From: Aureibaculum algae
GTDB lineage: Bacteria > Bacteroidota > Bacteroidia > Flavobacteriales > Flavobacteriaceae
Direction: 5' to 3'
NCBI RefSeq assembly: GCF_006065315.1
Contig: NZ_CP040749.1
Location: 2,122,501 to 2,186,500, forward strand
DNA: 64,000 nucleotides
Part shown: piece by piece, positions 30,893-63,984 of the stretch
Layout of the letters: each line of letters begins with the position of its first letter
How positions within the stretch are numbered: position 1 is the stretch's first letter
Notes under the pieces: generated by a model
Seen by the model: the letters and a program-made list of their open reading frames with translations, nothing else
Told to the model about the DNA's origin: nothing
Database searches by the model: none
Position numbers and translations under genes: made by a program

Positions 30893-30935
30893 TGACCTAC
30901 GTCATTTTATGAAATATACAGAAGGCATAATTTTA
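30893..30935 (+). promoter_or_regulatory. Island promoter 1: TGACCTACGTCA plus TAATTTTA
   Basis: The palindrome (30893-30904, extended to ATAAAATGA...TCATTTTAT) is centred 29.5 bp before a one-mismatch -7 box (30928-30935). Drives the gene at 31086. Confidence 0.7.
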
Positions 30936-31085
30936 TATTAAAATAAAACTACAGTAAAAGTTAGAATTTGAAGCGTCTATAATTTTTATTAAAACGCTTC
31001 AATAGTTTAATAGTTAAGTGATTGAGGAGAATGTAACTAGTATACAGCAGCGTAATAAATAAAATGAACCCATAAAAAATAGATT

Positions 31086-31556
31086 ATGAATAATTTCAGA
31101 TACAGACCAAAAGACAATTTTATTCAAGAGGCAGACTGGAAAGAACTTTTTGTTCTTACAGAACATTGGAAATCTGACCTTTTATTTTTTGCAGATGATA
31201 TAAAATTTCTACATGATTTAATTGATAAATATTATTTATGGATTGCTAGAAAAGAACATATAGATAAGGTACAAGAGATAGAGATTAACTTGTTAAATGT
31301 AGATAGACAAAATGCTTTATTATTAAAGAAAACGAATAAACATCTAGAACATTTGGAAGCTTTAATTGATAATCCATTTAAATATGATGCTTATGAATTT
31401 AGAAATGAACATGAGCAACTCGAAGATGATTTATCTGATTTTCTTAAATCTTTTAGAAAAAATAGAAAGGAAGTTTTCAGTATTACTGAATTTATAATTG
31501 ATAAAGAAGAATTGGTAAGGCATTTAGACTTTAGTAAAATTAAAAATTATGCCTAA
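31086..31556 (+). CDS. Helical hypothetical protein, distant paralogue of the protein at 59857
   Basis: A 156-residue cytosolic, fully helical protein. It has the segments EHWKSDLLFFADDIKFLHDLIDKY and EHEQLEDDLSDFLKSFRKNRKEVF. The protein encoded at 59857-60264 has the same layout (EWMDTVDFWKDEVRFFNDLL, then EISLRMADFTKEFKAFKR), so they form a family, here present at both ends of the island. There is no signal peptide and no metal motif. The gene lies behind island promoter 1. Function is unknown. Confidence 0.7.
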   Translation: MNNFRYRPKDNFIQEADWKELFVLTEHWKSDLLFFADDIKFLHDLIDKYYLWIARKEHIDKVQEIEINLLNVDRQNALLLKKTNKHLEHLEALIDNPFKYDAYEFRNEHEQLEDDLSDFLKSFRKNRKEVFSITEFIIDKEELVRHLDFSKIKNYA

Positions 31557-31587
31557 AAGATGTGATGCTATAGCTATAGGTTAACAT

Positions 31588-31628
31588 TGACCTGTATCAT
31601 ATTAATTACAAATTCATATATAATTTTA
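31588..31628 (+). promoter_or_regulatory. Weak candidate island site: TGACCTGTATCA plus TAATTTTA
   Basis: TGA-N6-TCA at 31588-31599. The nearest -7-like box TAATTTTA (31621-31628) is 27.5 bp from the centre, 2 bp shorter than in all other sites. May drive the exporter operon; less certain. Confidence 0.35.
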
Positions 31629-31647
31629 CATTTCAAAATTGAAGGAG

Positions 31648-32868
31648 ATGAAAAAATACAGATGGTTAATAGTTACAGCAGTTGTTGTAATTGCAGTAAT
31701 AGGTTATTTTTATGTAAGACCTAAAATTGAGTCAAAAAAAGTAGATTATACATTTACTGTTTTTCAAAAAGGTGATATAGAGTCTGATGTATCTAGCACA
31801 GGGACATTGGAAGCCATTAATACTGTAGATGTAGGTACACAAATATCTGGTACCATCTCTAAAATATATGTTGATTACAATGATCAGGTAAAAGCAGGGC
31901 AATTATTGGCTACTATGGACATGAAAATGCTACGCACGGCGTTAGAATCTGCTTCAGCCAATTTGGCCGTGAGTCAAGCCCAATTGAATCAGGTTCAAGA
32001 TGATTATAATAGGAATAAGGTGCTGTTTGAAAAAGATGTTATATCTGAAAAAGAATTTAATACTTCAAAATATAGTTATGAGCAGGCTGTTAGTTACAAA
32101 AAAGCATCTCAAGCTGCACTTACAAATGCACAAGTTAATATGGGATATGCTAAAATATTATCACCTATTAATGGCGTAGTTATTGAAAAAGCGGTAGATG
32201 AAGGACAGACCGTTGCTGCAAGTTTTTCTACACCAACAATGTTTATTATAGCGGAAGATTTGTCTAAAATGCAAATTTTGGCAGATGTTGATGAAAGTGA
32301 TATTGGTTATGTAAAAGATAGTATGGACGTACGTTTTACCATACAAACCTATCCAGATAAAAAGTTTTTTGGTAAAGTGAGCCAAATTCGATTACAGCCA
32401 ACAGAAATAAACAATGTGGTTAATTATCAGGTAGTTATTGATATAGAAAATAAGGGTGGGTTATTAATACCTGGCATGACTACGAACATTGAGTTTATAA
32501 CAGCTAAAGCAAAGGATGTTTGGCTTATAAATAATTCTGCTTTACGTTTTAGACCCACTGAAGCAATGTTGCAAGAAGTTAAACCGATATTAGAAGACAA
32601 GGCAAAAACAATAGTATCTGATTCTTTACGAGTAGCGTTTAAAAATGCGATTAATAATGAAGAGTTATTTACGCCAACAAATTTTAAGAAAAATTTACCT
32701 GCTAATATTAATGGTTTCTTTTATAAAAATGAAAATGGAAAGCTTGATTTCAAATTTATAGAAACTGGTATTACATCAGGACTACAATCTGAAGTTAAAA
32801 AATTTCTAGATGGATCTGAAATAACAGAAAGTATAAAGGCTATTAACGGTATAAAATCTAAAAAATAG
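31648..32868 (+). CDS. HlyD/MacA-type membrane fusion protein
   Basis: A periplasmic adaptor of about 406 residues. The ATG at 31648, right after AAGGAG, is preferred over the frame start TTG at 31639. One N-terminal membrane anchor (WLIVTAVVVIAVIGYFYV) is followed by a barrel-sandwich hybrid split by a helical hairpin: VGTQISGTISKIYVDYNDQV, then SPINGVVIEKAVDEGQTV, and a beta-barrel domain. It links an inner-membrane ABC pump to an outer-membrane channel. The ATPase and permease genes follow at 6 and 10 bp; no TolC-like gene is in the window. Confidence 0.9.
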   Translation: MKKYRWLIVTAVVVIAVIGYFYVRPKIESKKVDYTFTVFQKGDIESDVSSTGTLEAINTVDVGTQISGTISKIYVDYNDQVKAGQLLATMDMKMLRTALESASANLAVSQAQLNQVQDDYNRNKVLFEKDVISEKEFNTSKYSYEQAVSYKKASQAALTNAQVNMGYAKILSPINGVVIEKAVDEGQTVAASFSTPTMFIIAEDLSKMQILADVDESDIGYVKDSMDVRFTIQTYPDKKFFGKVSQIRLQPTEINNVVNYQVVIDIENKGGLLIPGMTTNIEFITAKAKDVWLINNSALRFRPTEAMLQEVKPILEDKAKTIVSDSLRVAFKNAINNEELFTPTNFKKNLPANINGFFYKNENGKLDFKFIETGITSGLQSEVKKFLDGSEITESIKAINGIKSKK

Positions 32869-32874
32869 AAAAAG

Positions 32875-33627
32875 ATGCCTGCAAAAAAAGTCATAGAAAC
32901 CAAAAAGCTAAACCGTATTTTTAAAAATGGTGAAATAAAGGTGCATGCCCTAAAGGACATAGATATGATTATTGAAGAAGGTGAATTTGTTGCCATTATG
33001 GGAGCGTCAGGTTCTGGAAAGTCAACCTTACTACATATTATTGGTTGTTTAGATAGGGCTACCTCTGGAGAATATGATTTAGATGGAGTACAGGTAAATA
33101 AATTAGGTAAGAATCATTTGGCAGATGTCCGAAATCAAAAAATAGGTTTCATTTTTCAAAGTTATAATTTATTGTCTCGTACTACGGCACTTGAAAATGT
33201 TGAACTACCTCTTATTTATGACAGAACGGGGCAATTTACAAACTCAAAAGAATTGGCTCAAAAAGCCCTTGAACAAGTGGGGTTAGCAGACCGTATTTAC
33301 CATAAAACGAATGAACTTTCTGGAGGACAACAACAGCGTGTTGCTATTGCTAGGGCATTGGTTAACAATCCCGCTCTTATTTTGGCAGATGAACCTACGG
33401 GTAACTTAGATAGTAAAGCCAGTATTGATATTGCCGATCTTTTTGTTCAATTGAATAATGAGGGAAAGACGATTGTTATGATTACGCATGAACCAGAAAT
33501 TGCACAATTTGCAAAACGCATGATCTATTTGAGAGATGGACAAATTATTTCTGATAAAATTATAGAAAAAAGAAGTACAAAAGCATTTGCACTCAAAGAA
33601 TTAGAAAAACCAGTTAAAACTCCTTAA
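32875..33627 (+). CDS. ABC transporter ATP-binding protein, MacB/LolD type
   Basis: A 250-residue ATPase with Walker [13 protein letters not shown]-loop IFQSYNLL, signature [15 protein letters not shown], Walker [13 protein letters not shown] and H-loop MITHEP. The spacing and the DEPTGNLDS ending are those of the LolD/MacB/FtsE group, which powers mechanotransmission rather than classical substrate transport. It is the central gene of a three-gene MacAB-like unit. The C-terminus has a short basic extension. Confidence 0.93.
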
Positions 33628-33637
33628 AAGAACAATT

Positions 33638-34852
33638 ATGAAAAGGTTTTTAAAAATATTTAAAGTTGCTTTTCTGTCTATCTATAAGAATAGGACGCGG
33701 AGTTTATTGACAATGCTGGGTATTATTATTGGTGTTGGAGCGGTTATTATGACCATATCGGCAGGAGAGGGAGCAACATTAGAGGTAGAAAACCAAATAT
33801 CAGGGTTAGGTACCAATCTTTTGATGATACAAACCAAGTCAGAACATAAGGCAGGTATCAATGTTAGAATGGGACGCCCTATTGATGAGAAAGATTTTGA
33901 TATGCTTAAAAAAAATTCGGTTTGGATGCCCCAATTATCTCCTCTTGTAGCGATTGGAGCACAAGCTATAGGACCAAGTGGATATAAATCGACTATGGTT
34001 TATGGTGTTGCTTACGATTATTTTTATATCACTAGTAGAGCATTACAAACAGGTAGTTTTTTTACCGAAGATGACGTGCGAACAGCAAAAAAATATTGTG
34101 TTATTGGCCAAACGATACGAGAAGAACTTTTTCCTGGAGAAGACCCTATTGGTCATCAAATACGTATAGATAAAGTGCCTTTTACGGTACTTGGTCTTTT
34201 AACTGAAGAAGGTTCAGGCGGTATGCAGGATATGGATGATATAATTTTAGCTCCGTATACAACAATTCAAAATAGATTGTATGGTCATCAACGAGGGTAT
34301 ACAATGATTTTGGGAAGTGCGTTAAGCGAAGATCATATTGCTGACGCTGAAATTGAGACCTCAGAACTATTACGAGAGTCTCATAAAATAATGGATGGAG
34401 ATGAAGATGATTTTGAAATTATGACACAAATTGAACTTCAAGAAATTACTGGAAATGTTACAGGAATCTTAACCATTCTGTTGGGTGCCGTAGCTAGTAT
34501 TTCATTAATTGTTGGAGGTATTGGTATTATGAATATTATGCTGGTTTCGGTTACTGAGCGAACTCGAGAAATAGGTACTAGACTTGCGATTGGAGCTAGA
34601 GAAAGCGATATTTTAACGCAGTTTTTAATAGAAGCCATAGTGCTCAGCTTGGTAGGAGGTGTTTTAGGAATAGCATTTGGAATTATAGGAAATCAAATTA
34701 TTTATAAAGTAACTGGATTTTTTATTCCTACTGTTGGTTATTCAATACTTATTGGGTTCGGGTTTTCAGCACTTGTAGGTGTTGCTTTTGGATATTTTCC
34801 AGCACGAAAAGCAGCAAAATTAAATCCGATAGATGCTTTACGATATGAATAA
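33638..34852 (+). CDS. MacB-like ABC transporter permease
   Basis: A 404-residue permease with the MacB/FtsX topology. TM1 is near residues 20-42 (LLTMLGIIIGVGAVIMTIS), then a large periplasmic MacB_PCD domain (about 45-275), then three C-terminal helices (about 280-305, 325-355 and 365-390) with the FtsX motif VTERTREIGTRLAIGA. With the upstream ATPase and adaptor it should export a peptide, toxin or lipid-like compound. ATPase and permease are separate proteins, unlike the fused E. coli MacB. Confidence 0.92.
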   Translation: MKRFLKIFKVAFLSIYKNRTRSLLTMLGIIIGVGAVIMTISAGEGATLEVENQISGLGTNLLMIQTKSEHKAGINVRMGRPIDEKDFDMLKKNSVWMPQLSPLVAIGAQAIGPSGYKSTMVYGVAYDYFYITSRALQTGSFFTEDDVRTAKKYCVIGQTIREELFPGEDPIGHQIRIDKVPFTVLGLLTEEGSGGMQDMDDIILAPYTTIQNRLYGHQRGYTMILGSALSEDHIADAEIETSELLRESHKIMDGDEDDFEIMTQIELQEITGNVTGILTILLGAVASISLIVGGIGIMNIMLVSVTERTREIGTRLAIGARESDILTQFLIEAIVLSLVGGVLGIAFGIIGNQIIYKVTGFFIPTVGYSILIGFGFSALVGVAFGYFPARKAAKLNPIDALRYE

Positions 34853-35544: not shown

Positions 35545-35587
35545 TGACCATGGTCATTTCAAGAACGCTTCAATTCATTTAGCTTTG
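35545..35587 (+). promoter_or_regulatory. Island promoter 2: TGACCATGGTCA plus TAGCTTTG
   Basis: A perfect 12-bp palindrome (35545-35556) centred 29.5 bp before an exact -7 box (35580-35587). Drives the gene at 35643. Confidence 0.8.
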
Positions 35588-35642: not shown

Positions 35643-36032
35643 ATGATTAAAGAAAACACAAAAACAAAAGAGCTCGGTATCTATATGGATCATTCAAAAG
35701 CAAAATTAATTGATTTACATTCTGAGAAAAACACTTATACGATTACCTCTGAATTTAGTGCGGAGACAAAAGCAGAAGCCTTAACTAGAAGTGAAAACCT
35801 TATGCATAATAAACGACAACAAATGCAAGAAGAATACTATGAAAAAATAGCTAAGGTCATTTTGAAATATGATGATGTACTTCTTTTTGGTTTAACAAAA
35901 GCTAAAACAGAACTTTATAATTTTCTGAATGAAGATTTACGTTTTAAAGATATTAAAATTAGTGTTGAGCCTGCCGATAAGTTAACGTTAAATCAACAAG
36001 ATGCTTTTGTGAGAACTTATTTTGAAAAATAA
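35643..36032 (+). CDS. Possible release-factor-like (baeRF/eRF1 domain-like) protein
   Basis: A 129-residue cytosolic protein. It starts GIYMDHSKAKLIDLHSEK and continues with a helix, YEKIAKVILKYDDVLLFGLTKAKTELYNFL and IKISVEPADKLTLNQQDAFV. This alternation resembles the eRF1-domain-like fold of bacterial baeRF proteins and their relatives in stress gene clusters. I base this on pattern only. The gene is the first behind island promoter 2; the CMD gene follows after 134 bp. Confidence 0.6.
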   Translation: MIKENTKTKELGIYMDHSKAKLIDLHSEKNTYTITSEFSAETKAEALTRSENLMHNKRQQMQEEYYEKIAKVILKYDDVLLFGLTKAKTELYNFLNEDLRFKDIKISVEPADKLTLNQQDAFVRTYFEK

Positions 36033-36166: not shown

Positions 36167-36517
36167 ATGATTAAAGATTATTCAAAACACTATAGTAATC
36201 TTACTAAATTAATGCGTGAAATGGGTGCTGAAATGCCTGAAGTAATGGGTGGATTTAATAAGTTACACGAAGCTAGTATTAAAGAAGGTGTACTCTCTTC
36301 AAAAAACAAAGAACTTATTGCATTAGGTATTGCTATAACGGTAAGGTGCGACGGCTGTATTGCCTTTCATGTGCACGATGCTTTAAGTTCAGGAGCAAGT
36401 TCAGAAGAAATTATGGAAACTATTGGTGTTGCTATTCTTATGGGAGGTGGACCTGCATTAGTGTATGGTTGCCAAGCCATGGAGGCCTTAAGTCAATTTG
36501 TGGTTTTAGAAAAATAG
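36167..36517 (+). CDS. AhpD-like carboxymuconolactone decarboxylase family protein
   Basis: A 116-residue all-helical CMD protein. The redox motif is present as CDGCIAFHVHDAL (CxxC with a following His), preceded by LIALGIAITV and followed by the GASSEEIMETIGVAILMGGGPA helix pair. Such proteins are peroxidase or disulfide-reductase modules, usually trimeric or hexameric. No TGA-N6-TCA site was found in the 134 bp before it, so it is either read through from the previous gene or has another promoter. Confidence 0.85.
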   Translation: MIKDYSKHYSNLTKLMREMGAEMPEVMGGFNKLHEASIKEGVLSSKNKELIALGIAITVRCDGCIAFHVHDALSSGASSEEIMETIGVAILMGGGPALVYGCQAMEALSQFVVLEK

Positions 36518-37448: not shown

Positions 37449-37491
37449 TGATCTAGGTCATTTTAAATGTGCTATTAAATCTAAATCTTTG
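37449..37491 (+). promoter_or_regulatory. Island promoter 3: TGATCTAGGTCA plus AATCTTTG
   Basis: The palindrome (37449-37460) is centred 29.5 bp before a one-mismatch -7 box (37484-37491). Drives the UbiB-family gene, with a leader of about 145 bp. Confidence 0.65.
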
Positions 37492-37636: not shown

Positions 37637-39319
37637 ATGGCAGGTTTAAAAATTCCAAAACAACAAGAGCTTAAAAGATATAACAAACTATTTGCTGTAC
37701 TTACAAAATATGGTTTTGAGGATGTTATGGCACACCATCAAATAAAAAAAATAATTCCCAAAAGTTATCTTAAAAAACATCCAAACACGCAAAAGAATCT
37801 TTCTTTTACAAAATATGAGCGTATACGAATGATGTTGGAAGAGTTGGGACCTACTTATGTAAAATTAGGACAAATATTTAGTAACAGAGAAGATATGTTA
37901 CCTCCTGATTTAATAAAGGAACTTGTAAAGCTACAAGATCATGTACTGACATTAAAAAATTTCAATATTAAAGAAGTAGTTGAACAGGAGCTAAAAATAA
38001 ATAGTACAGATTATTTTCAATCAATTGATAGTGCCCCATTAGCAGCAGCATCTCTAGCTCAAGTACATAAAGCAATCTTATTAAATGGAAATGAAGTCGT
38101 ATTAAAAGTGCAACGGCCCGATATCAAAGAAACTATAGAAGCTGACATTTTAGTAATGAAACAAGTTGCTAAAAGTTTAGAAAAACATAGTAGTCAAGCA
38201 AAAGCCTTCCAGCCAAAGCAAATAATAGCTTCTTTTGAAAAAAGTATAAGAGAAGAGCTTCAGTTTTTACAGGAAGTAGAAAATATGGAACATTTTGCTA
38301 AAGATTTTAAAGGCAATGCATCTATTTATGTTCCTAAAGTGTATCGAGAACTATCTACAGACAAGCTTATTTGTATGGAATTTATTGATGGAATTAAAGT
38401 TTCTGAAATTGATACGCTTACATCGTTAAATATAGATTGTAGTACTGTTGCCAAGGTTGGCGTAGATCTCTATTTAGAACAGATTTTAGAGCATGGTTTT
38501 TTTCATGCAGATCCGCATCCTGGAAACATTTTTGTACTTCCAAAGACCCAGCAAATTTGTTTTATTGATTTTGGAATGATGGGGTCTATTATGCCAAATG
38601 ACAGAGACACGTTAAGTGATCTCTTGTTATATTTTATGAAAAATGATGTTAAAAAAATAATTCAATTATTAGAGAAAATTGCTGTTAAAGCCAATATTGA
38701 CGATTATAAAAAATTAGAGTATGATTTGTATGAATTGATAGTAGGTGTTAGTAATACTTCCATTAAAAATATCAGAATGGGGATTGTTCTTAATCAGTTT
38801 AAATCTGTTTTATACGGAAATCATATAATTTTACCCCATTATATGTATATGCTCATCCGTGGTTTAATTATTATAGAAGGCGTAGGTTTAAAACTAGATC
38901 CTAAATTTAATATCACAGATAATTTAGAACCTTACTCTACTAAAATTACAAAAAAGCGTTTCAGTTTAAAACGTTTGTTAAAAAAGAACTTCACAAGATT
39001 ACAAGACCTAAACAGTCTCGCTGATTCATTACCAGATGATATTACTATCATTCTAAATAAAATTAAAGAAGGAAAACTAGTAATTGTACATAAGCATAAG
39101 GGCCTAAAAGAATTTCAAAGCACACTAAATAAAGCTTCTAATCGATTAGTTTTTGCGGTTATTATAGCCGCATTATCAATTGGTTCATCCATTTTAGTGA
39201 TTGCTAAAATGCCTCCTTTGGTATATGGTATTCCTTTGCTTGGAGCCATTGGTTTTATACTGTCTGCAGTTTTAGGATTTTACATCGTTATTTCCATTTT
39301 TAAGAATAAGGAGTATTGA
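37637..39319 (+). CDS. ABC1/UbiB family atypical kinase
   Basis: A 560-residue member of the UbiB/ADCK family. Motifs: KxGQ-like VKLGQIFSNREDMLP, Ala-rich loop APLAAASLAQVHKA, VVLKVQRPD, catalytic FFHADPHPGNIFVL and the metal-binding CFIDFGMMG. Two C-terminal transmembrane helices lie at about 505-530 and 535-556 (VFAVIIAALSIGSSILVI). The family supports isoprenoid quinone synthesis through its ATPase activity; this lineage makes menaquinone, so the direct target is uncertain. DUF4010 follows 22 bp downstream. Confidence 0.92.
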   Translation: MAGLKIPKQQELKRYNKLFAVLTKYGFEDVMAHHQIKKIIPKSYLKKHPNTQKNLSFTKYERIRMMLEELGPTYVKLGQIFSNREDMLPPDLIKELVKLQDHVLTLKNFNIKEVVEQELKINSTDYFQSIDSAPLAAASLAQVHKAILLNGNEVVLKVQRPDIKETIEADILVMKQVAKSLEKHSSQAKAFQPKQIIASFEKSIREELQFLQEVENMEHFAKDFKGNASIYVPKVYRELSTDKLICMEFIDGIKVSEIDTLTSLNIDCSTVAKVGVDLYLEQILEHGFFHADPHPGNIFVLPKTQQICFIDFGMMGSIMPNDRDTLSDLLLYFMKNDVKKIIQLLEKIAVKANIDDYKKLEYDLYELIVGVSNTSIKNIRMGIVLNQFKSVLYGNHIILPHYMYMLIRGLIIIEGVGLKLDPKFNITDNLEPYSTKITKKRFSLKRLLKKNFTRLQDLNSLADSLPDDITIILNKIKEGKLVIVHKHKGLKEFQSTLNKASNRLVFAVIIAALSIGSSILVIAKMPPLVYGIPLLGAIGFILSAVLGFYIVISIFKNKEY

Positions 39320-39341: not shown

Positions 39342-40613
39342 ATGCAAATACATCAAGAAATTAGCGAGTTGGTTGGATCTTACATATTGGGTGTACTTAT
39401 CAGTTTAGGTATTGGCTTAATACTGGGGCTTGAAAGAGAATATGACAAACTAAAAGAAGAAAGAGGTTTTGCAGGAATTCGCACATTTCCAATGGTTTCA
39501 ATTCTAGGGTTTACTTTAGGAACATTAACTGATAAATTTACGCCATGGCTATTAATCGTAGGTTTTGGTTCATTTATTTTCTTTTTAGTACTTAATCATT
39601 TTTACCAGAAACAGGAAGAATATGCTAAAGGGATTACCACCAATATAGCCTTGATAGTCACTTTTGTTTTAGGGGTAATGATCTCGGCAGAATATTATCG
39701 AAATGCGGTAGCTACTGCTGTAATAATTGTAACATTACTTTCGCTCAAAAATCGATTTCATTCTGTTATCAGCAATATAACCTCAGAAGAACTGTTCGCA
39801 TTTATAAAGTTTTCAATAATAGCTTTGTTAATTCTACCTTTTCTTCCTAACAAAACGTATGGTCCAGATCATTTGCTCAACCCTTTTGAAATAGGTTCCA
39901 TTATCGTAATTGTTTCTTTTTTGAATTTCATAGGCTATTTTTTAGTAAAATTTGTAGGTTCTAAAAAAGGGATTCTTCTTACGGCTATTCTTGGCGGATT
40001 AATATCTAGTACCGCAGTGGCTTGGAATTACGCCTCAAGAAGCAAGGATTCTCCAGAGCTTTCAAAAAAATATAGTGCAGGTATTATTGTAGCCTCGGCA
40101 ATTATGTTTCCTAGAATAGCCTTATTAGCTTATATCTTTAACAATGCCATTATTAAGTATTTAGCACTTCCATTTGGTTTATTGACATTGGTTTGTATCA
40201 TAGCTACTTTAGTATTAATGCGGAAAGATGACAGTAAGCCTGATACTGATATTAAACTGGGTAATCCGCTTAACATGTTAAATGCAATAGGATTTGGAGT
40301 GGTCTATTTAGTGATCCTTTTTGCCGTTTATTATAGTAATCGATTTTTTGGTGAAAGTGGTTTGTATTATTCTGCATTAATAGCAGGTTTAGCAGACACC
40401 GATGCCATTACTATTAGCATGGCTAAGTTTTCTGTAGATGGAGAAAAACTGCAACTCGCATCATCAGTTATAATTGCAGCTACGATGAGTAATATGTTTG
40501 TAAAGCTTATCACTACAATAATAAAAGGTTCAAAAACTACAGGTAAACTAGTAAGCTACGCTTTTGGTAGCGTTATTTTGGTAGGAGTTATTTATATTCT
40601 AATCCTTAACTGA
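39342..40613 (+). CDS. MgtC/SapB N-domain plus DUF4010 membrane protein
   Basis: A 423-residue polytopic membrane protein with about 12 helices. The N-terminal MgtC/SapB domain has IGLILGLEREYDKLKEERGF and GIRTFPMVSILGF. The second half is DUF4010, with SSTAVAWNYASRSK and ALIAGLADTDAITISMAK. It probably shares the UbiB transcript (22-bp gap). Transport or Mg2+ stress functions have been proposed for MgtC domains, but the cargo is unknown. Confidence 0.88.
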   Translation: MQIHQEISELVGSYILGVLISLGIGLILGLEREYDKLKEERGFAGIRTFPMVSILGFTLGTLTDKFTPWLLIVGFGSFIFFLVLNHFYQKQEEYAKGITTNIALIVTFVLGVMISAEYYRNAVATAVIIVTLLSLKNRFHSVISNITSEELFAFIKFSIIALLILPFLPNKTYGPDHLLNPFEIGSIIVIVSFLNFIGYFLVKFVGSKKGILLTAILGGLISSTAVAWNYASRSKDSPELSKKYSAGIIVASAIMFPRIALLAYIFNNAIIKYLALPFGLLTLVCIIATLVLMRKDDSKPDTDIKLGNPLNMLNAIGFGVVYLVILFAVYYSNRFFGESGLYYSALIAGLADTDAITISMAKFSVDGEKLQLASSVIIAATMSNMFVKLITTIIKGSKTTGKLVSYAFGSVILVGVIYILILN

Positions 40614-40691: not shown

Positions 40692-40734
40692 TGACCTAGG
40701 TCAGTGTCACTATTGTTAAAGCCAATTAATTTTG
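40692..40734 (+). promoter_or_regulatory. Island promoter 4: TGACCTAGGTCA plus TAATTTTG
   Basis: A perfect palindrome CTGACCTAGGTCAG (core 40692-40703) centred 29.5 bp before an exact -7 box (40727-40734). Drives the DUF5661 pseudogene. Confidence 0.85.
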
Positions 40735-40788: not shown

Positions 40789-41061
40789 ATGACAAAAATA
40801 AACTCAGAAGAAGCAAAAGTGATTGGAAATAATTTGGGTATCGATTGGAATGCTATTCGATTAGACGAATTTGCAAAAGGTGTAAATGTTGAATTTGAAC
40901 ATGGCACAAGATATCCAGAAACCAATGTGACTAATAATGATACAGCCTTAACAGGAAAAATAGCTTAGGCACATTTAAAAGAGTTTCCTGATTATTATAC
41001 ACGGTTAGAGAAAATGGAAAATAAAGCGGAAGCGTATTGGAAAGAACGAGAGTTAAACTAA
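40789..41061 (+). pseudogene. DUF5661-like protein gene broken by one nonsense codon
   Basis: Reading from the ATG gives INSEEAKVIGNNLGIDW, VNVEFEHGTRYPETNVTNND and LTGKIA, then TAG at codon 60 (40966-40968). The same frame continues with AHLKEFPDYYTRLEKMENK to TAA at 41059. The whole matches the roughly 90-residue DUF5661 family, where this position is normally a leucine (GKIALAHL). One T-to-A change (TTG to TAG) explains it. Either a recent null mutation or a sequencing error. The gene keeps a perfect island promoter 55 bp upstream. Confidence 0.75.
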
Positions 41062-41081: not shown

Positions 41082-41124
41082 TGACCTAGGTCAGTGTATT
41101 ACAGTTAAGAGCTATCTAATTTTG
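41082..41124 (+). promoter_or_regulatory. Island promoter 5: TGACCTAGGTCA plus TAATTTTG
   Basis: A perfect palindrome (41082-41093) centred 29.5 bp before an exact -7 box (41117-41124). Drives the ferritin operon, 67 bp before its first ATG. Confidence 0.85.
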
Positions 41125-48035: not shown

Positions 48036-48078
48036 TGACTTAGGTCAGTTTTAAAGTTTTAAGATTCAAATACCTTTG
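48036..48078 (+). promoter_or_regulatory. Island promoter 6: TGACTTAGGTCA plus TACCTTTG
   Basis: The palindrome (48036-48047) is centred 29.5 bp before an exact -7 box (48071-48078). Drives the small frames and the ferric-reductase-like gene. Confidence 0.85.
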
Positions 48079-49847: not shown

Positions 49848-50318
49848 ATGATTTATAGACTGATACTATTCTTAGTACTTAATTTTGCAGCACTTGGTGT
49901 TGGAGGATTTTTAGCAGGCAATGGAGCTTCTTCTGATTGGTATGCACATATTGACAAAGCTCCGTGGACACCACCAGGTTGGGTCTTTGGCTTTGCATGG
50001 GTTACGATCATGATATGTTTTAGTTTTTACTTAGCCTATTTATGGCCAGAAATTGAAAACAAAAATCTACTCATTGGTTTATTAGTCGTACAGTATTTAT
50101 TGAACATGGCATGGAATCCGACATTCTTCTATTATCATTATGTTCTGGCAGGCCTATTGGTTTTAATTGGACTTGCATTTGTTGTCGGAGTCTTTTTATT
50201 TTTTTATTGGCCAGAGTTAAAATTAAAATCGATATTGATAATTCCTTATTTTATTTGGTTATTAATTGCAACGTCACTCAATGGGTACGTCTTATTTAAA
50301 AATCAAATTATTATATAA
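49848..50318 (+). CDS. tspO: TspO/MBR family tryptophan-rich sensory protein
   Basis: A 156-residue protein with five transmembrane helices. Family motifs: DWYAHIDKAPWTPPGWVFG near the first loop and LNMAWNPTFFYYHY in helix 3. TspO binds porphyrins and is tied to oxygen- and stress-dependent regulation in bacteria. A clear TGA-N6-TCA site was not found in the 188 bp upstream; read-through from the flavocytochrome gene is possible. The adjacent heme-type reductase makes a porphyrin link plausible. Confidence 0.92.
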   Translation: MIYRLILFLVLNFAALGVGGFLAGNGASSDWYAHIDKAPWTPPGWVFGFAWVTIMICFSFYLAYLWPEIENKNLLIGLLVVQYLLNMAWNPTFFYYHYVLAGLLVLIGLAFVVGVFLFFYWPELKLKSILIIPYFIWLLIATSLNGYVLFKNQIII

Positions 50319-50411: not shown

Positions 50412-50454
50412 TGATGTAGGTCAGGGTTCTCACATTAGAACCACTATATCTTTG
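50412..50454 (+). promoter_or_regulatory. Island promoter 7: TGATGTAGGTCA plus TATCTTTG
   Basis: The palindrome (50412-50423) is centred 29.5 bp before an exact -7 box (50447-50454), preceded by an A-tract (CAAAAAAAGTTTTATA). Drives BON protein 1, whose ATG lies 35 bp after the box. Confidence 0.85.
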
Positions 50455-51374: not shown

Positions 51375-51417
51375 TGATCTAGGTCAGTGTTTCTTTTCTC
51401 TTGCCATGATAATTTTG
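51375..51417 (+). promoter_or_regulatory. Island promoter 8: TGATCTAGGTCA plus TAATTTTG
   Basis: The palindrome (51375-51386) is centred 29.5 bp before an exact -7 box (51410-51417). The A-tract TTCAAAAAAAGTTTAGAA lies just upstream, as before the BON genes. Drives the aldehyde dehydrogenase gene, ATG 25 bp after the box. Confidence 0.85.
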
Positions 51418-53193: not shown

Positions 53194-53236
53194 TGATGTA
53201 GGTCAGTGTCTTTATTCTAATGCTGATGTAATTTTG
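53194..53236 (+). promoter_or_regulatory. Island promoter 9: TGATGTAGGTCA plus TAATTTTG
   Basis: The palindrome (53194-53205) is centred 29.5 bp before an exact -7 box (53229-53236). A-tract TTCAAAAATAAGTTGATG upstream. BON copy 2 ATG is 37 bp after the box. Confidence 0.85.
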
Positions 53237-54020: not shown

Positions 54021-54063
54021 TGACCTTGGTCAGTAACTAACACTCTTTATCATACTAACTTTG
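54021..54063 (+). promoter_or_regulatory. Island promoter 10: TGACCTTGGTCA plus TAACTTTG
   Basis: The palindrome (54021-54032) is centred 29.5 bp before an exact -7 box (54056-54063). BON copy 3 ATG is 37 bp after the box. Confidence 0.85.
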
Positions 54064-54895: not shown

Positions 54896-55792
54896 ATGAA
54901 TTATAAAAATATAACCATAGCCGGAAGTGGTGTTCTAGGATATCAGATTGCATTTCAAACAGCATTTCATGGCTTTCATGTAACCGTTTACGATATCAAT
55001 GATACTGTTTTAGAAAAAGCAAAAGCAAAATTCGAAACCTTGAGTAAAGCTTATAAAAGAGATCTAAAAGCATCAGAGCAAAAAATTGAGAAAACACGTA
55101 AAAATTTAAGGTATAGTTCCAATTTGGCTGAAGCGGTTAAAGATGCAGATTTACTAATTGAAGCAGTCCCCGAAAATCCAACAATAAAAATTGAATTTTA
55201 TAAAAAATTGGCAAAAGTAGCCCCTGCAAAAACAGTTTTTGCAACCAACTCTTCAACATTGTTACCGAGTCAGTTTTCAGAATTTACAGGTAGACCAACA
55301 AAATTTTTGGCTTTGCATTTCGCTAATACCATTTGGATTCATAACACTGCAGAAATTATGGGGCATCCAACAACTGACCCTGAGGTGTTCAAAGATGTGG
55401 TAGCTTTTGCAAAAGCTATTGGTATGTTAGCATTGCCTTTGCATAAAGAGCAACCAGGGTACATCCTTAATTCGTTATTGGTGCCAATGCTAAGTGCTGC
55501 TACGGACTTATTGGTTAGTGAAGTTGCCGAAGTAGAAACCATAGATAAAACATGGATGAAAGCAACTGGAGCTCCATTAGGACCTTTTGGTATTCTTGAT
55601 GTTGTAGGGATTACAACTGCTTACAATATAGATAAAATGACCGCAGAGAAAACCAAAGATGAATTAAAAATTAAAACCGTAAACTACCTAAAAGAAAATT
55701 TTATAGATAAAAATAAATTAGGGGTCTCTACAGGGGAAGGGTTTTATAAATACCCAAATCCAGCTTATGAAGACCCTGATTTTTTAAAATAG
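54896..55792 (+). CDS. 3-hydroxyacyl-CoA dehydrogenase (3-hydroxybutyryl-CoA type)
   Basis: A 298-residue NAD-dependent dehydrogenase. The Rossmann motif is ITIAGSGVLGYQIAFQTAFHG (about 5-25) with VYDIND ending strand 2. The catalytic region has NSSTLLPSQF and the His in FLALHFANTIW, and the C-terminal domain has GYILNSLLVPML. It oxidises 3-hydroxyacyl-CoA, or acts in the reverse direction in butyrate-type metabolism. The conserved acidic and basic residues appear present. Likely read through from BON gene 3. Confidence 0.85.
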   Translation: MNYKNITIAGSGVLGYQIAFQTAFHGFHVTVYDINDTVLEKAKAKFETLSKAYKRDLKASEQKIEKTRKNLRYSSNLAEAVKDADLLIEAVPENPTIKIEFYKKLAKVAPAKTVFATNSSTLLPSQFSEFTGRPTKFLALHFANTIWIHNTAEIMGHPTTDPEVFKDVVAFAKAIGMLALPLHKEQPGYILNSLLVPMLSAATDLLVSEVAEVETIDKTWMKATGAPLGPFGILDVVGITTAYNIDKMTAEKTKDELKIKTVNYLKENFIDKNKLGVSTGEGFYKYPNPAYEDPDFLK

Positions 55793-56108
55793 GTTAAAGG
55801 TCACTTTTTATAATTTGATGTAATTCCTGTTTTGAAATGAAGTCGATAGTTGTACATGAAAATTCAATTTAGTATAGCTTCTATTCCCAATCATAAATCA
55901 TATTTATAAAGTTGAAGTATTGATGGTTGCTATGATATTTGAGTATTAGAATAGGGGAGTAGCCTATTCGTAAAACGCGTGATTAACCTTTATTATAATT
56001 TCAAATTAGGGTAGAATTATATATAGGCTGATATAGATCATTTTAAATGGAGGTTTTCTAAAGTAATTTTACATGTATTAGTTATTGTTTAATTTAGAAG
56101 TAAGTAAA
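55793..56108. other. 316-bp intergenic region with island promoter 11
   Basis: The only feature seen is the promoter at 56029-56071. The upstream 230 bp are AT-rich without a frame, hairpin or RNA that I recognise. Confidence 0.5.
56029..56071 (+). promoter_or_regulatory. Island promoter 11: TGATATAGATCA plus TAATTTTA
   Basis: The palindrome (56029-56040) is centred 29.5 bp before a one-mismatch -7 box (56064-56071). BON copy 4 ATG is 37 bp after the box. Confidence 0.7.
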
Positions 56109-56765
56109 ATGAAAACAGATTTAGAAATAAAGAATGATGTACTCCAAGAACTTGCGTGGCAACCCAACGTAGATGAAACCCAAATAGGAGTAGTAGTTGA
56201 AAACGGAGTTGTAATGCTCACAGGTGTAGTAGATAATTATCTTGTAAAAGTGGCAGCCGAGATGGCAGCAAAAAGAGTTAAAGGAGTTAAAGCATTTGCG
56301 GGTGACATACATGTGAAATATGGTACCAATTTTCAAAAAACGGATATTGAAATCGGTAAAGCTATTGTAAAAGCTTTTGAATGGAATACAGCTGTACCTG
56401 AAGATAAAATCTCAATTGAAGTTCACGATGGTTGGGTTACTATATCTGGTGAGGTAGAATGGGCCTATCAAAGAGATGCCGCTGCAAGAGTTGTAGAGAG
56501 CATAAAAGGTGTTAAGTGGATCAACAATACAATTACAATGAAATCAGTAAAAATAACTGAAGACGTTACCGAGAAAATTGCTAAAGCTTTTAAACGTTCA
56601 GCTGATATAGAAGCGGATGGAATCACTGTTGATATAATAGATGGTTTGGTAAAACTAAGAGGAATTGTACATTCAATTTCTGAAAAGAAAGCTGCTGAAA
56701 AAGCAGCGTATTTATCTCCAGGTGTTGATGTTATTATTAATGAGTTAGAAGTAATAGATAATTAG
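56109..56765 (+). CDS. Three-BON-domain protein, copy 4
   Basis: A 218-residue paralogue. The frame opens at TTG 56085, but the ATG at 56109 (MKTDLEIKNDVLQEL) matches the other copies and sits 37 bp after the -7 box. BON cores: GVVMLTGVVDNYLVKVAAEM, GWVTISGEVEWAYQRDAAAR and GLVKLRGIVHSISEKKAAEK. No signal peptide. It is the most diverged copy at its end. The exonuclease III gene begins 26 bp downstream and may be in the same transcript. Confidence 0.9.
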   Translation: MKTDLEIKNDVLQELAWQPNVDETQIGVVVENGVVMLTGVVDNYLVKVAAEMAAKRVKGVKAFAGDIHVKYGTNFQKTDIEIGKAIVKAFEWNTAVPEDKISIEVHDGWVTISGEVEWAYQRDAAARVVESIKGVKWINNTITMKSVKITEDVTEKIAKAFKRSADIEADGITVDIIDGLVKLRGIVHSISEKKAAEKAAYLSPGVDVIINELEVIDN

Positions 56766-56791: not shown

Positions 56792-57553
56792 ATGCATATA
56801 ATATCTTGGAATGTAAATGGAATACGTGCCATTGTAAAGAAGAATTTTGTTGAAAGTGTTAAAAAACTGAATCCAGATATTATTTGCTTACAAGAGACAA
56901 GAGCTAGCGAAAAGGAAGTTGAAAAAGCATTATTACCTTTTAAAGAGTACTATCAATACTGCAACGCTGCAGATAAAAGTGGGTATTCGGGCACTACCAT
57001 ATTGAGTAAGTCAAAACCAGACTTTATAAAAAATGATTTGAACATTGCAGAACATGATACTGAAGGTAGAGTGCTATGCACTAGTTACCCAGATTTCCAT
57101 TTGATAAATGTATATGTGCCTAATTCTGGACAGCAATTAGATCGCTTGACATATCGAAAAAAATGGGATGCCGATTTTTTAATCTATTTAAAAAAGTTAG
57201 AGAAAACGAAACCTGTCATTGTTTGTGGCGATTTTAATGTAGCCCATAATTCTATAGATCTTAAAAATGATAAGTCTAATTATAACAAAACGGCGGGGTA
57301 TACTCAGGTTGAAATTGATGGAATGGATAATTTAATAAAGTCAGGCTTTGTAGATGTTTTTAGACATTTTTATCCCGATGAGGTTGCCTATACGTATTGG
57401 AGTTATCGTTTTAAAGCTAGAGAGCGAAATACCGGATGGCGAATTGATTATTTTTTAGTTAGTAAGTCAATAGTGCCTAAAGTAAAAGCTGTTGCTATAT
57501 ATTCAGATATAATGGGGTCAGATCATTGTCCAATTGGTATGAAAATTGAATAA
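56792..57553 (+). CDS. xth: Exodeoxyribonuclease III / AP endonuclease
   Basis: A 253-residue EEP-fold nuclease. Motifs: ISWNVNGIRAI, IICLQETRAS (catalytic Glu), VYVPNSG, VCGDFNVAHNSIDL, WRIDYFLVS and GSDHCPIGMK at the C-terminus (catalytic Asp-His). It repairs abasic sites and removes 3' blocking ends in oxidative DNA damage. Length is normal. Spacing suggests co-transcription with BON gene 4, which would place repair under island control. Confidence 0.94.
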   Translation: MHIISWNVNGIRAIVKKNFVESVKKLNPDIICLQETRASEKEVEKALLPFKEYYQYCNAADKSGYSGTTILSKSKPDFIKNDLNIAEHDTEGRVLCTSYPDFHLINVYVPNSGQQLDRLTYRKKWDADFLIYLKKLEKTKPVIVCGDFNVAHNSIDLKNDKSNYNKTAGYTQVEIDGMDNLIKSGFVDVFRHFYPDEVAYTYWSYRFKARERNTGWRIDYFLVSKSIVPKVKAVAIYSDIMGSDHCPIGMKIE

Positions 57554-60275: not shown

Positions 60276-61211
60276 TTAATTTGTTTTTATAGGTTCTTTT
60301 TTATGTAATTGTTGTAACTCTTTAAATAAATTTTCTTCTTGTTTTGTAAGATGTTTAGGTAAATTCACATTTAGTTTGACTAATAAATCACCATGAGTGG
60401 ATGGTTTACGATAGTTAGGCATTCCTTTACCTTTAAGTCTAAGTGTCTTACCTGTATTACTATTTTTGGGTACTGTAATATGTAGTGATCCAGTAAGGGT
60501 GGGTATGTTTATTTTACCACCCAATAGTGCAGTATATAAGTCTACATCGGCATTATATATAAGATTATCACCACTTCTTTTAAATCGGTGATCTGGTTGC
60601 ACTTTTACTATGATGTATAAATCACCACGGTTTCCACCTTTAACACCTTTTTGTCCTTTCCCTTTAATTTTTAATTGTAAGCCATCGTAAGATCCAGGTT
60701 TTATAGTAATACGTAACTTTTCATTATGTATTTCAAAGGTTCGTTTACTTCCTTTATATGCTTCTAAAAGCGTAATGGGCATTTCTGCTTTCGTATCACC
60801 TCCAGAAAAAGAAGATTGATTTGCTCTTCTTCCAAAAAAGGTTTCGAAAAAACTAGAAAAATCTTCGCCACCAGCAGCACCTTGTCCAAAAATATCAGAA
60901 GGATCACCTTGCGAGTATTTAGAATTTCTTCCTCTTTGATTGGCTTGGTTGGCATACTCACGCCAATTATCTCCAGTATTTTGATAAGCATCCCAATTAG
61001 ATCCTAAGGTGTCATATTTTTCACGTTTTTCTTTATCACTTAGCACTTCATTGGCCTCATTCAATTCCTTGAACTTTTCTTCAGCTGTTTTATCATTAGG
61101 ATTTTTATCAGGGTGATATTTTCCTGCCAATTTCCGATAGGCTTTTTTGATCTCTTTTGAAGAGGCATCTTTACTAACTCCTAATATTTTATAATAATCC
61201 TTGTAATTCAT
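60276..61211 (-). CDS. CbpA-type DnaJ-domain co-chaperone
   Basis: A J protein of about 311 residues. The frame opens at TTG 61220; the ATG at 61211 ([15 protein letters not shown]) is preferred. The J domain (1-70) contains the essential HPD in [12 protein letters not shown] Gly/Phe/Gln-rich linker (about 75-120) follows, then two DnaJ C-terminal substrate domains (about 130-205 and 210-290). No zinc finger, so it is of the CbpA/DnaJ-B type. It delivers clients to DnaK. It lies 12 bp after the sigma-like gene. Confidence 0.93.
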
Positions 61212-61223
61212 TTTCAACAAGTT

Positions 61224-61997
61224 TTATTTGTTAATAGCATATCTATTGAAAAAACTTAATTGTAGTGCTTTTCTAGCGTCTTCTAATAATTTTTCGACCT
61301 CAGTGACACTACTGTTTCTTATTTCTGCAATTTCTTCTGCCGTAAATTTATAATTGGTAAACAGTTCAAAAACGGAACTCATAGCCAAAGGTAATTGTTG
61401 AAGTACCATAGCTATTTGGGTATGAATTCTTTCTTTACTTAATTCTTTATCAAGTCTTTTGACTATTTTATTTTCTTTATTTTCTATAAATACATGATTC
61501 AAAGTGTAATCATTATGGTTATAAGACATGTCATCTAACTCTTCAATCAATAAGAAATCACCACCAGCATCAACAGTGTAATTTTCTTCCATTTCATCCC
61601 ATTCGGGTTTGGTATAAATATCTATATTTTTAAAAAACAAATTATCAAACTCTTCTTCTTCGATAGCATCCTCCAATAATTCATTGGTTTTTTTAAATAA
61701 CCATAAATAGAAATCTTTTTGATTTTCAAACATATCTATATGATCATAAATTTCTATAAAAAGTTGATCGATAAAATCATCAGCTTTATATTTGTTTTTT
61801 GAGAAATTTCCATTTTTTATGGCTGAATTTAACCTACCCACTATATATTTATTTATCTCAGGTAAAATTTTCAAGACCAATTCATTAAAAGATTTCTTGT
61901 CTTCTTCTTTTTTAAGTTGAACAAGATCAGGAAATGCTTGAGCAATAATCACACGAAATTCTTTGTGCTGTTTGTTATATTTTACCATGTCCTCCAT
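61224..61997 (-). CDS. Divergent sigma-factor-like protein heading the J-protein operon
   Basis: A 257-residue cytosolic protein. The N-terminal third has a region-2-like helix set (DDFIDQLFIEIYDHIDMFEN, then FYLWLFKKTNELLED). A long acidic insert lies at about 115-165. The C-terminus is a region-4-like helix-turn-helix (MSSVFELFTNYKFTAEEIAE, then SSVTEVEKLLEDARKAL). This is the layout of ECF-like sigma factors, but the DNA contacts are weakly conserved. It lies behind island promoter 12. It may be a regulator of the operon or a pseudo-sigma protein. Confidence 0.6.
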   Translation of the reverse strand: MEDMVKYNKQHKEFRVIIAQAFPDLVQLKKEEDKKSFNELVLKILPEINKYIVGRLNSAIKNGNFSKNKYKADDFIDQLFIEIYDHIDMFENQKDFYLWLFKKTNELLEDAIEEEEFDNLFFKNIDIYTKPEWDEMEENYTVDAGGDFLLIEELDDMSYNHNDYTLNHVFIENKENKIVKRLDKELSKERIHTQIAMVLQQLPLAMSSVFELFTNYKFTAEEIAEIRNSSVTEVEKLLEDARKALQLSFFNRYAINK

Positions 61998-62022: not shown

Positions 62023-62065
62023 TAAAGGTGTGAACATATAAGCAAAATTAAAATGACCTAGATCA
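62023..62065 (-). promoter_or_regulatory. Island promoter 12 (minus): TGATCTAGGTCA plus CACCTTTA
   Basis: The palindrome (62054-62065; TGACCTAGATCA on the plus strand) is centred 29.5 bp before a two-mismatch -7 box at 62023-62030. Drives the five-gene sigma-like/J-protein/thioredoxin operon, ATG 25 bp after the box. Confidence 0.6.
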
Positions 62066-62099: not shown

Positions 62100-62756
62100 T
62101 CATCCATTTTGTACGTTTGTTTTATTTTTATCAAATCTGACGTTGGGCAATCCAAACAGACCTCTTAAAAGACCATGAATAATAGCAATAGGTAATAGAA
62201 GGATACCTATTATGAGTGTACCAAGTTCAAAAACCAAGGAGCTATCTGTGTATGGTTTTCCTTTTAGTCTCGAGTGAAATGCACTCAATGGAATTCCCAA
62301 CATATTCCCAACAGTTATTATTTGAACTACAGAAAGTATAATACGTGCTTCTTGCTTACCATATTCTTTAATAATAGCATCGTAAGCATATTTTTTAGGA
62401 TAACCTCTTGAATCTGAATAATGTTGAGCGAACAGTATTGCTATGGCTTCTTTTGGTTTTGTAAAATGATTTTCACCACCTAAAAAGCTATTTATTTCTT
62501 TACCACTCATGCCTAGACGTAAGGCCATTTTAGCATGTCCATAGGAGCAAATGGCACAACCATTTACTTCGGTTACGGCCAATTGTAAGCGTTTTACAAA
62601 ATCTTTATCAACCAATTGGCTTTTGTTATTTTCAATCATTCTTATCATTGCTTTAGGGATATAAATAAAAGCACGGTACATTTCTCCTAAACCGAATTTA
62701 TTTTTAAACGCTGATCGAGAGCTTATGGCTTTTGGTATGTGTATATCTGCTTTCAT
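62100..62756 (-). CDS. AhpD-like CMD protein with C-terminal membrane segment
   Basis: A 218-residue protein. The CMD core has the full AhpD active-site series in TEVNGCAICSYGHAKMALRLG (Glu, CxxC, His). A hydrophobic C-terminal segment (about 175-200, LVFELGTLIIGILLLPIAII) suggests membrane anchoring, which is unusual for the family. It may reduce peroxides or disulfides at the membrane. No island palindrome was seen in the 149 bp upstream; the dodecin terminator separates it from that gene. Confidence 0.82.
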   Translation of the reverse strand: MKADIHIPKAISSRSAFKNKFGLGEMYRAFIYIPKAMIRMIENNKSQLVDKDFVKRLQLAVTEVNGCAICSYGHAKMALRLGMSGKEINSFLGGENHFTKPKEAIAILFAQHYSDSRGYPKKYAYDAIIKEYGKQEARIILSVVQIITVGNMLGIPLSAFHSRLKGKPYTDSSLVFELGTLIIGILLLPIAIIHGLLRGLFGLPNVRFDKNKTNVQNG

Positions 62757-63109: not shown

Positions 63110-63136
63110 AACTAAGTGATTTTAAAATTAATATAT

Positions 63137-63179
63137 CAAAAGTAGAAATCAAATTTATTATACGAAATGATCTTGATCA
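63137..63179 (-). promoter_or_regulatory. Island promoter 13 (minus): TGATCAAGATCA plus TACTTTTG
   Basis: The palindrome (63168-63179) is centred 29.5 bp before an exact minus-strand -7 box at 63137-63144. Dodecin ATG lies 27 bp after the box. Confidence 0.8.
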
Positions 63180-63238
63180 GGAAACGAAAATAAGTAGTAA
63201 CATGCTTTATATTAAAATAAAGAATTGATGACTTCATT

Positions 63239-63257
63239 TTGAATATGGAATATTCAA
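63239..63257. repeat. Palindrome TTGAATATGGAATATTCAA, right copy
   Basis: A 9-1-9 inverted repeat with one mismatch, nearly the same as 30742-30758, and likewise followed by a TTGTATT...TTGATAA stretch. It lies between dodecin and the gene at 63399. Confidence 0.45.
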
Positions 63258-63398
63258 TTTGTTTGTATTTTGATAACTATAGTCGAATTCCGCTTAAAGT
63301 AATTTAAAATGTGTTACTATTTTGGTGTTAGTGTTAAGGTTGAATGGTAGCGTAGGTATTTTATTTTTTTATGAACCATAAACTTTGATGTAACTGAA

Positions 63399-63893
63399 CT
63401 AAACCTCTTCTAACGCCGTTTTTAAATGATGTAAATCATCATCAAAGCCTCTTATAATCAGTAAATAATTCCCATTATGTAACATCTCTATAAAAGTATC
63501 TGCATTTGTTTTTCCAGCACCTAAACCTCTTAATATACCATTTAAGCCTACGGATATACCTCCTAATGCTTTTCCATTAATTTCATGCATAAACAAAGAA
63601 GTTAATGAGCCAATAATATATACAGTGCCTATCTCAGGGTTTTTAAATATACCAAACTCTATGGCAGAACCCAGCACTTTTTTCCAATACTCTTTTAATT
63701 GTTTCTCGAATTGAATTTGGTCTTTTTTATTTTTAAAAGACTGTTCATTGGTAAACATACTAAGAATAGATAATTGAGAATTAATTTCACTATCATTCTT
63801 TAAAATATCTATTGCCGTTATCAATTTTTGTAATTGCGAAAATGACTTAATAAGAATATGTTTCTTTTTCGGATGTTGCACACTATAACTCAT
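63399..63893 (-). CDS. Hypothetical protein with Gly-rich hydrophobic centre
   Basis: A protein of about 164 residues; ATG 63893 (MSYSVQHPKKKHILIK) is preferred over the frame start at 63899. The N-terminal half is helical and charged; the centre (about residues 92-135, EIGTVYIIGSLTSLFMHEIN and ALGGISVGLNGILRGLGAG) is hydrophobic and glycine-rich; a small alpha/beta end follows (YLLIIRGFDDDLHHLKTALEE). It resembles in layout the DUF1269-like proteins of stress clusters. I do not recognise the family. It lies behind island promoter 14. Confidence 0.65.
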   Translation of the reverse strand: MSYSVQHPKKKHILIKSFSQLQKLITAIDILKNDSEINSQLSILSMFTNEQSFKNKKDQIQFEKQLKEYWKKVLGSAIEFGIFKNPEIGTVYIIGSLTSLFMHEINGKALGGISVGLNGILRGLGAGKTNADTFIEMLHNGNYLLIIRGFDDDLHHLKTALEEV

Positions 63894-63941
63894 AATCAAT
63901 TTTTAAAAGTATTAACGTTTTTCTAATAATACTTATGGGAG

Positions 63942-63984
63942 CTAAATTAATATGTTAATTAATTACGATGAATGACCTGGGTCA
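63942..63984 (-). promoter_or_regulatory. Island promoter 14 (minus): TGACCCAGGTCA plus TAATTTAG
   Basis: The palindrome (63973-63984) is centred 29.5 bp before a one-mismatch -7 box at 63942-63949 on the minus strand. Drives the gene ending at 63399. Confidence 0.65.

Follow-up and report, generated by a model that had tools for sequence, protein, structure and literature searches.

The genome of Aureibaculum algae (Bacteroidota; Flavobacteriaceae) carries, in the second half of a 64,000-nucleotide stretch (NZ_CP040749.1, positions 2,122,501 to 2,186,500; hereafter, the window), a 33-kb island of genes marked by repeated occurrences of a rigid 43-bp composite, i.e. a TGA-N6-TCA palindrome followed at a fixed distance by a -7 box. 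Through this composite, the island is probably controlled by REC-CRP, a two-component regulator that combines a receiver domain (REC) with a CRP-type protein, is encoded beside the island and appears to belong to a Bacteroidota-wide lineage of FixL-like kinases and CRP-type activators. Judged from sequence comparisons, this reading has a probability of roughly 0.7.

All 14 TGA-N6-TCA palindromes listed in a preliminary description of this DNA are recovered with the same centres and strands (Table 1), and at each of them the octamer resembling a -7 box begins 29.5 bp away from the centre. The sequence TAnnTTTG is the -7 box of the Bacteroidota type; as described previously, it is matched exactly at nine sites, with one mismatch at four and with two mismatches at one (centre 62059.5, minus strand). 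With the 37 TGA-N6-TCA palindromes of the window taken in either orientation, boxes within one mismatch number 13 at the 29.5-bp offset and no more than three at any other offset in the range 10 to 59. In 200 first-order Markov shuffles of the 33-kb region, composites with a box within one mismatch average 0.235 and never exceed 2, compared with the 13 observed. In the first 30.8 kb of the window there are no composites, and in the first 30 kb, where convincing intergenic copies had been said to be missing, a model of the site gives no match at E <= 1. This model, which uses sequence only, was trained without the window on 56 sites from 10 other genomes and applied to 150 of 6335 first-look candidates; it recovers 13 of the 14 window sites at E <= 0.021, the site at 62059.5 being a partial match (E 0.155). 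The palindrome centred at 63978.5 has a second, exact box on its opposite side, just beyond the window end, and may therefore serve two divergent promoters.

The sites are intergenic in all 12 window cases assessed (one of them entered at its correct position but on the opposite strand) and at all 28 of the 30 genome sites for which a gene could be assigned; at 25 of these 28 sites the next same-strand open reading frame (ORF) begins no more than 177 nt away, and at the other three it begins 594–1204 nt away. Across the copies, the palindrome and the box are conserved but the spacer between them is not, so the composite is not a repeated element. The clustering of the copies in one region might suggest chance or a repeat of mobile or structural nature, but these readings are ruled out by the tests of spacing and conservation, together with the intergenic placement and the excess over the Markov expectation, and keep a negligible probability. 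No Rfam family matches the window at the gathering threshold. Given the location of the -7 box, the palindrome would be centred at -41.5, the class II position, and, as far as sequence goes, the proposal that these are Crp/Fnr-type, class-II-like sites of fixed geometry is supported; the composite marks a real regulon and is kept in relatives.

Genome-wide, the composite is likewise enriched: in 5.17 Mb, the pattern TGACCTAGGTCA-N23-TAnnTTTG with at most three mismatches has 33 matches, compared with 4 for the reversed pattern. At E <= 0.01 the site model finds 31 matches, 26 of them in four clusters, namely the window island with its edge (11), 2.40–2.42 Mb (7), 3.20–3.22 Mb (6) and 4.09 Mb (2), and 5 scattered. 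The earlier formulation, in which the activator controls the island, is thus too narrow with respect to the three further clusters. The genes after non-island sites, as identified by eye, include two for Hsp20 as well as those for YtxH, Usp, HemN, a peroxiredoxin, VIT1/CCC1, c-type cytochromes and others; the hemN-like gene is preceded by a site, and a site with a one-mismatch box lies about 19 nt upstream of a ccoI-like gene (both by eye).

The preliminary description postulated one Crp/Fnr-type activator encoded elsewhere. The Crp-type assignment stands, but the candidate is not remote: among nine HTH_Crp_2 matches in the genome (six over the cut-off), one belongs to a protein of 356 amino acids encoded about 1 kb past the window end that has receiver, cyclic-nucleotide-binding and HTH_Crp domains (PF00072, 97.7 bits; PF00027 and PF13545, over the cut-off). 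Its gene overlaps by 4 nt the gene for a histidine kinase of 801 amino acids with several PAS domains. Patatin-like and MscS-like genes, identified by eye, stand in line with the kinase and regulator genes and share their strand (L040:1992-7471). In the receiver domain, the phospho-acceptor D52 and K104 are invariant in 21 of 21 orthologues. Residues E318 and R322, equally invariant in 21 of 21, align with E181 and R185 of Escherichia coli CRP, which are recognition-helix residues, in an alignment whose E. coli row was entered by hand. At the places of E72 and R82, the cAMP contacts of E. coli CRP, the regulator has Q210 and Y220 (each in 20 of 21 orthologues), and a simple cAMP-CRP reading is rejected on the ground of these replacements. 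In the AlphaFold2 model (mean predicted local distance difference test score, pLDDT, 83.6; predicted template modelling score, pTM, 0.66), the CRP half matches structures of the CRP/FNR family. No PDB match spans both halves among the 50 listed out of 1936, and each of the 60 sequence matches listed out of 328 spans one half or the other. A single activator was too narrow a proposal as well: a second kinase/REC-CRP pair, with a regulator 46% identical to the first, lies in the 3.20-Mb cluster among Usp-looking genes, and the genome also encodes a stand-alone Fnr-like protein whose recognition helix is almost identical.

Sites and regulator occur together across the family. Composites with at most two mismatches were counted in 299 genomes, with close orthologues of the regulator defined by E < 1e-100 and the window genome left out of the close group. 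The mean number of sites per genome is 5.6 in genomes with a close orthologue (n = 21), 1.06 in those with only a weaker match of the second type (n = 116) and 0.43 in those with no match at E <= 1e-40 (n = 161). At least three sites are present in 19 of 21, 15 of 116 and 7 of 161 genomes, respectively (22 of the 277 without a close orthologue), while the reversed control totals 2, 20 and 19 in the same three groups. These statistics ignore kinship and, as the genomes are not independent, the p-values are descriptive. In the three relatives with complete site lists, 3 of 4 (G119), 7 of 8 (G129) and 3 of 3 (G201) sites lie within 35 kb of the REC-CRP gene.

The spacing is kept in all ten relatives in which the 40 kb around the regulator was analysed, with 137 sites at the exact offset, whereas the 55 other offsets average 4.4. 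Over ten genomes with the second-type regulator alone, the surroundings of that regulator hold 84 sites at the exact offset compared with a mean of 4.5; these sites have the same spacing and a more variable core. In the joint count for L041 and L042, which overlap by 5 kb, six sites are counted twice, and 15 are distinct. Another recurrent palindrome, TGACATATGTCAT, is found at the same spacing from the -7 box in G017, G125, G145, G154, G248 and other genomes, and perhaps belongs to another Crp/Fnr-type regulator. A third form, TGAYNTAGGTCAAA, occurs several times per genome in G033, G083 and G135, which have no REC-CRP match.

Beyond the family, a contig scan for REC-CRP identifies 80 named loci, nearly all labelled Bacteroidota; REC-CRP genes are also seen on contigs labelled Deltaproteobacteria (L142), Bacteriovoracaceae (L157) and Alphaproteobacteria (L174), labels that would reflect transfer or wrong binning. 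In the distant loci, the inner palindrome keeps its distance to the box and a second palindrome peak appears 22 bp further out. Tandem pairs number 77 at a shift of 22 bp and 16 at 23 bp, with at most 4 at any other shift from 16 to 28. The upstream copy accompanies 40 of 79 sites in distant named loci, compared with none of 58 in close ones, 2 of 137 in relatives and none of 12 in the window, where sites near an end were left out. The tandem analysis and the regulator tree comprise 87 rows (65 named loci, 20 relatives and the 2 proteins of the window genome), 38 of which have no single or tandem label; among the 49 labelled rows, the label needs two changes on the tree.

Of the 86 tandem sites in named loci, 3 are inside an ORF and 58 have the start of a sense ORF within 400 nt. 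Nine proteins encoded downstream were checked, among which CcoNO, CcoG, HemN, HemA and a P-type ATPase pass the curated cut-off, RIC and Hsp18 matches fall below it and two proteins have no match at E <= 1e-15; Usp-like genes, identified by eye, are also found downstream. A tandem site lies within 300 nt before the kinase gene in 9 of 54 distant loci and in none of 13 close ones, the figure for other ORFs being 57 of 1268; this gives only modest support to autoregulation of the kinase/REC-CRP group. In a survey of 247 genomes of the phylum, where the regulator search scored at most eight candidates per genome, the tandem pattern is found 184 times (control 3) in the 21 same-class genomes with the regulator, 46 times (control 5) in the 30 genomes of the window organism's own order and 69 times (control 23) in the other 186 genomes.

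In both kinases of the window genome, the best matches of the first PAS domain are the FixL and DosP structures. Adjacent kinases are present in 67 of the 70 named loci examined (of 80; ten were left out), and the position of the FixL axial histidine is occupied by His in 49 of these 67, by another residue in 5 and has no FixL-PAS match in 13. Among relatives with the second-type regulator, all ten kinases have both this His and the distal Arg; among ten with the first type, four have the His, one the His and the Arg, three neither, and two have no match. On these counts, oxygen is likely to have been the ancestral signal, and low oxygen is considered the probable original input of the lineage.

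Several observations weigh against the circuit as proposed. Upstream of the gene group that includes the regulator, the spacer of the site measures 22 rather than 23 nt. The window genome contains four matches to the tandem pattern (at most two mismatches; control 0) and thus may not lack the tandem form altogether. Among same-class genomes, the ten without the regulator still contain 33 tandem patterns (control 1), and five genomes (G440, G315, G371, G483 and G404) have tandem sites and a stand-alone CRP with no full-length REC-CRP match; in ten same-class genomes with tandem sites and no REC-CRP at the first cut-off, the CRP half has matches (E <= 1e-20) in eight and the full-length protein in none. 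Furthermore, in the two kinases of the window genome the haem-His position is taken by N and Q, and that of the Arg by F and I. A FixL-type haem site in these kinases is rejected on this alignment (N/F and Q/I), and there is no support for a FixL-type oxygen signal in this species. It is quite conceivable, at somewhat less than even odds, that the signal in A. algae is general stress, redox or membrane state, read by a reused FixL-like kinase, as the broad stress genes of the island would also suggest. Against such a non-oxygen input stand the HemN-, peroxiredoxin-, c-type-cytochrome-, Usp- and Hsp20-like genes that follow sites in the same genome and the retention of the haem histidine in half of the ten first-type relatives.

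The remaining objections concern which protein reads the sites. The main rival to REC-CRP is the stand-alone Fnr-like protein (228 amino acids; C1:3267520-3268203), whose gene adjoins cbb3 oxidase genes and whose recognition segment, GTATESAIRLLSEF, nearly equals that of REC-CRP, GTATETAIRMLTEF; REC-CRP genes would then be mere neighbours of the sites or secondary readers. Among genomes without REC-CRP, those with the Fnr-like gene indeed hold more sites (0.61 compared with 0.16 per genome), and in G440 a CRP without a receiver domain stands between tandem sites. Yet the association with REC-CRP persists on both sides of this divide: at least three sites are found in 6 of 8 genomes with close REC-CRP compared with 1 of 62 without REC-CRP when the Fnr-like gene is missing, and in 14 of 14 (the window genome included) compared with 6 of 99 when it is present, the Fnr-like gene's own effect on the number of sites being the smaller one. 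With the sites also clustering near the REC-CRP gene in the three relatives described above, and with G517 and G525 having a stand-alone CRP match and no tandem site, reading mainly by the Fnr-like protein appears unlikely. The persistence of the REC-CRP effect beside a smaller effect of the Fnr-like gene makes shared use of the operator quite possible, i.e. both REC-CRP proteins and the Fnr-like protein could bind, with their inputs integrated at the 43-bp composite. The near-identical recognition helices, the presence of both REC-CRP pairs in one genome and the common spacing of the more variable second-type sites favour this arrangement, whereas the TGACCTAGGTCA form tracks the first-type regulator far more closely than the second type alone, which suggests some division of labour; sharing is a real prospect, if a little short of an even chance.

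The genes of the island can be read as a stress-survival set, several of their database matches being under the curated equivalog cut-offs, hence '-like'. They encode a MacAB-like exporter, an AhpD-domain protein, UbiB-like, MgtC/DUF4010, ferritin-like and DUF308/HdeD-like proteins, oleate hydratase, a ferric-reductase-like flavoprotein, TspO, four BON/OsmY-like proteins, a member of the aldehyde dehydrogenase family, 3-hydroxyacyl-CoA dehydrogenase, exodeoxyribonuclease III, thioredoxin, a DnaJ-like protein and a sigma-like protein (Table 1). Across relatives, the gene content is partly common and the order is rearranged. A relative of the sigma-like protein, 29% identical, is encoded in the second REC-CRP island (L041:10634-11335), and the sigma-like protein itself has tblastn matches in the islands of 7 of 10 relatives; the pair is possibly part of the circuit.

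Table 1. Operators and selected genes of the island (window coordinates; mismatches are relative to TAnnTTTG).
Feature	Position	Strand	Context
Operator, box with 1 mismatch	30893..30935	+	before 156-aa ORF 31086-31556 and MacA/MacB-like ABC export genes 31639-34852
Operator, exact box	35545..35587	+	before 35643-36032 (129 aa) and AhpD-domain gene 36167-36517
Operator, box with 1 mismatch	37449..37491	+	before UbiB-like 37637-39319 and MgtC/DUF4010 protein 39342-40613
Perfect palindrome CTGACCTAGGTCAG (best copy), exact box	40692..40734	+	before 59-aa ORF 40789-40968
Perfect palindrome, exact box	41082..41124	+	before ferritin-like 41192-41701
Operator, exact box	48036..48078	+	before ferric-reductase-like flavoprotein 48304-49659
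TspO/MBR gene	49848..50318	+	in island
Operator, exact box	50412..50454	+	before OsmY-like 50466-51143
Operator, exact box	51375..51417	+	before aldehyde dehydrogenase family gene 51443-52846
Operator, exact box	53194..53236	+	before OsmY-like 53274-53927
Operator, exact box	54021..54063	+	before BON-domain 54101-54769 and 3-hydroxyacyl-CoA dehydrogenase 54896-55792
Operator, box with 1 mismatch	56029..56071	+	before OsmY-like 56085-56765 and exodeoxyribonuclease III 56792-57553
Sigma-70-like protein	61224..61997	-	under curated cut-offs
Operator, box with 2 mismatches (weakest site)	62023..62065	-	about 25 nt before sigma-like 61224-61997, then DnaJ-like 60276-61220
Operator, exact box	63137..63179	-	nearest same-strand ORF 62100-62756 (weak CMD/AhpD match, under cut-off), about 380 nt off
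Operator, box with 1 mismatch	63942..63984	-	before 63399-63899 (166 aa)
Exact box TATTTTTG of the 63978.5 palindrome	past window end	+	same distance; before YtxH gene L040:1079-1411 (Pfam)

The 59-residue ORF after the operator centred at 40697.5 ends at an in-frame TAG, beyond which the frame stays open (40789-41061). Also in the island, a 2,3-bisphosphoglycerate-dependent phosphoglycerate mutase is divided into an N-terminal and a C-terminal part in separate ORFs (42609-42863 and 43049-43318), and the gene looks broken.

The sites, their geometry and conservation, their co-occurrence with the regulator, its domains and some of the gene content are directly supported, and from them the following circuit is inferred. 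The PAS histidine kinase would phosphorylate the receiver domain of REC-CRP, and the phosphorylated dimer would bind the palindrome through the CRP-type recognition helix. Bound about 41.5 bp before the transcription start, it would activate RNA polymerase at the TAnnTTTG -7 box and switch on stress-survival and redox genes, both within and outside the island. A FixL-like kinase would thus pass its signal straight to a CRP-type activator, so that the FixJ and FixK steps become one; many distant members of the lineage have two palindromes 22 bp apart. A broader scenario, for which the odds seem about even, is that a low-oxygen and dormancy programme of Bacteroidota runs from a FixL-type haem-PAS kinase to REC-CRP and its rigidly spaced operators, with two dimers 22 bp apart (-63.5 and -41.5) as the ancestral state, reduced to one in two flavobacterial lineages, and that the kinases of the window lineage lost the haem site and were re-tuned to another signal.

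Among the titles and abstracts listed in literature searches, none names a REC-CRP regulator or a FixL-type circuit in Bacteroidota, which is weak evidence of novelty given that subscription literature is mostly uncovered, and no description was found of Bacteroidota coupling oxygen shortage to respiration and survival genes by such a circuit. What is gained is a candidate regulator pair with a 43-bp operator for which any genome can be scanned. The tandem and single operators and the kinases with and without the haem histidine also form a natural series in which to study the takeover of a CRP-type activator by a two-component receiver.

The closest parallel is the FixL-FixJ-FixK system of Alphaproteobacteria, which shares with the proposed circuit a FixL-like PAS kinase (with the haem histidine in many relatives), a receiver domain and a CRP-type activator. 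FixJ combines a receiver domain with a LuxR/GerE output and activates fixK; unlike FixJ, REC-CRP has the helix-turn-helix domain of Crp as its output and, unlike in FixK, the Crp part is fused to the receiver, although stand-alone relatives exist. Unlike FixL, the kinases of the window genome have no haem histidine, and the operator, unlike that of the FixK system, is single or is tandem with a 22-bp step. The likeness to FixK extends to the palindrome, which contains TGA-N6-TCA as the FixK2 box is described to do (PMC9104804), and to some operators in other Bacteroidota that precede cco, hemN and hemA, genes described as members of the FixK/FnrN regulons of Alphaproteobacteria (PMC4999443). 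With class II activation by E. coli CRP and FNR, the regulator shares the CRP fold, the E and R of the recognition helix and, presumably, a site at about -41.5; unlike in E. coli CRP, the cAMP contacts are replaced, activity would be set by phosphorylation and the -7 box is of the Bacteroidota type. Among the PDB matches listed, the nearest folds to the CRP half are NtcA, GlxR and the CRP of Mycobacterium tuberculosis (TM score by target, about 0.8). The lxa locus of Burkholderia cenocepacia and the DosR dormancy regulon are, as described, clustered stress sets like the island, in other phyla. The lxa locus is described as activated by low oxygen, with an lxa mutant surviving anoxia less well (PMC3759415).

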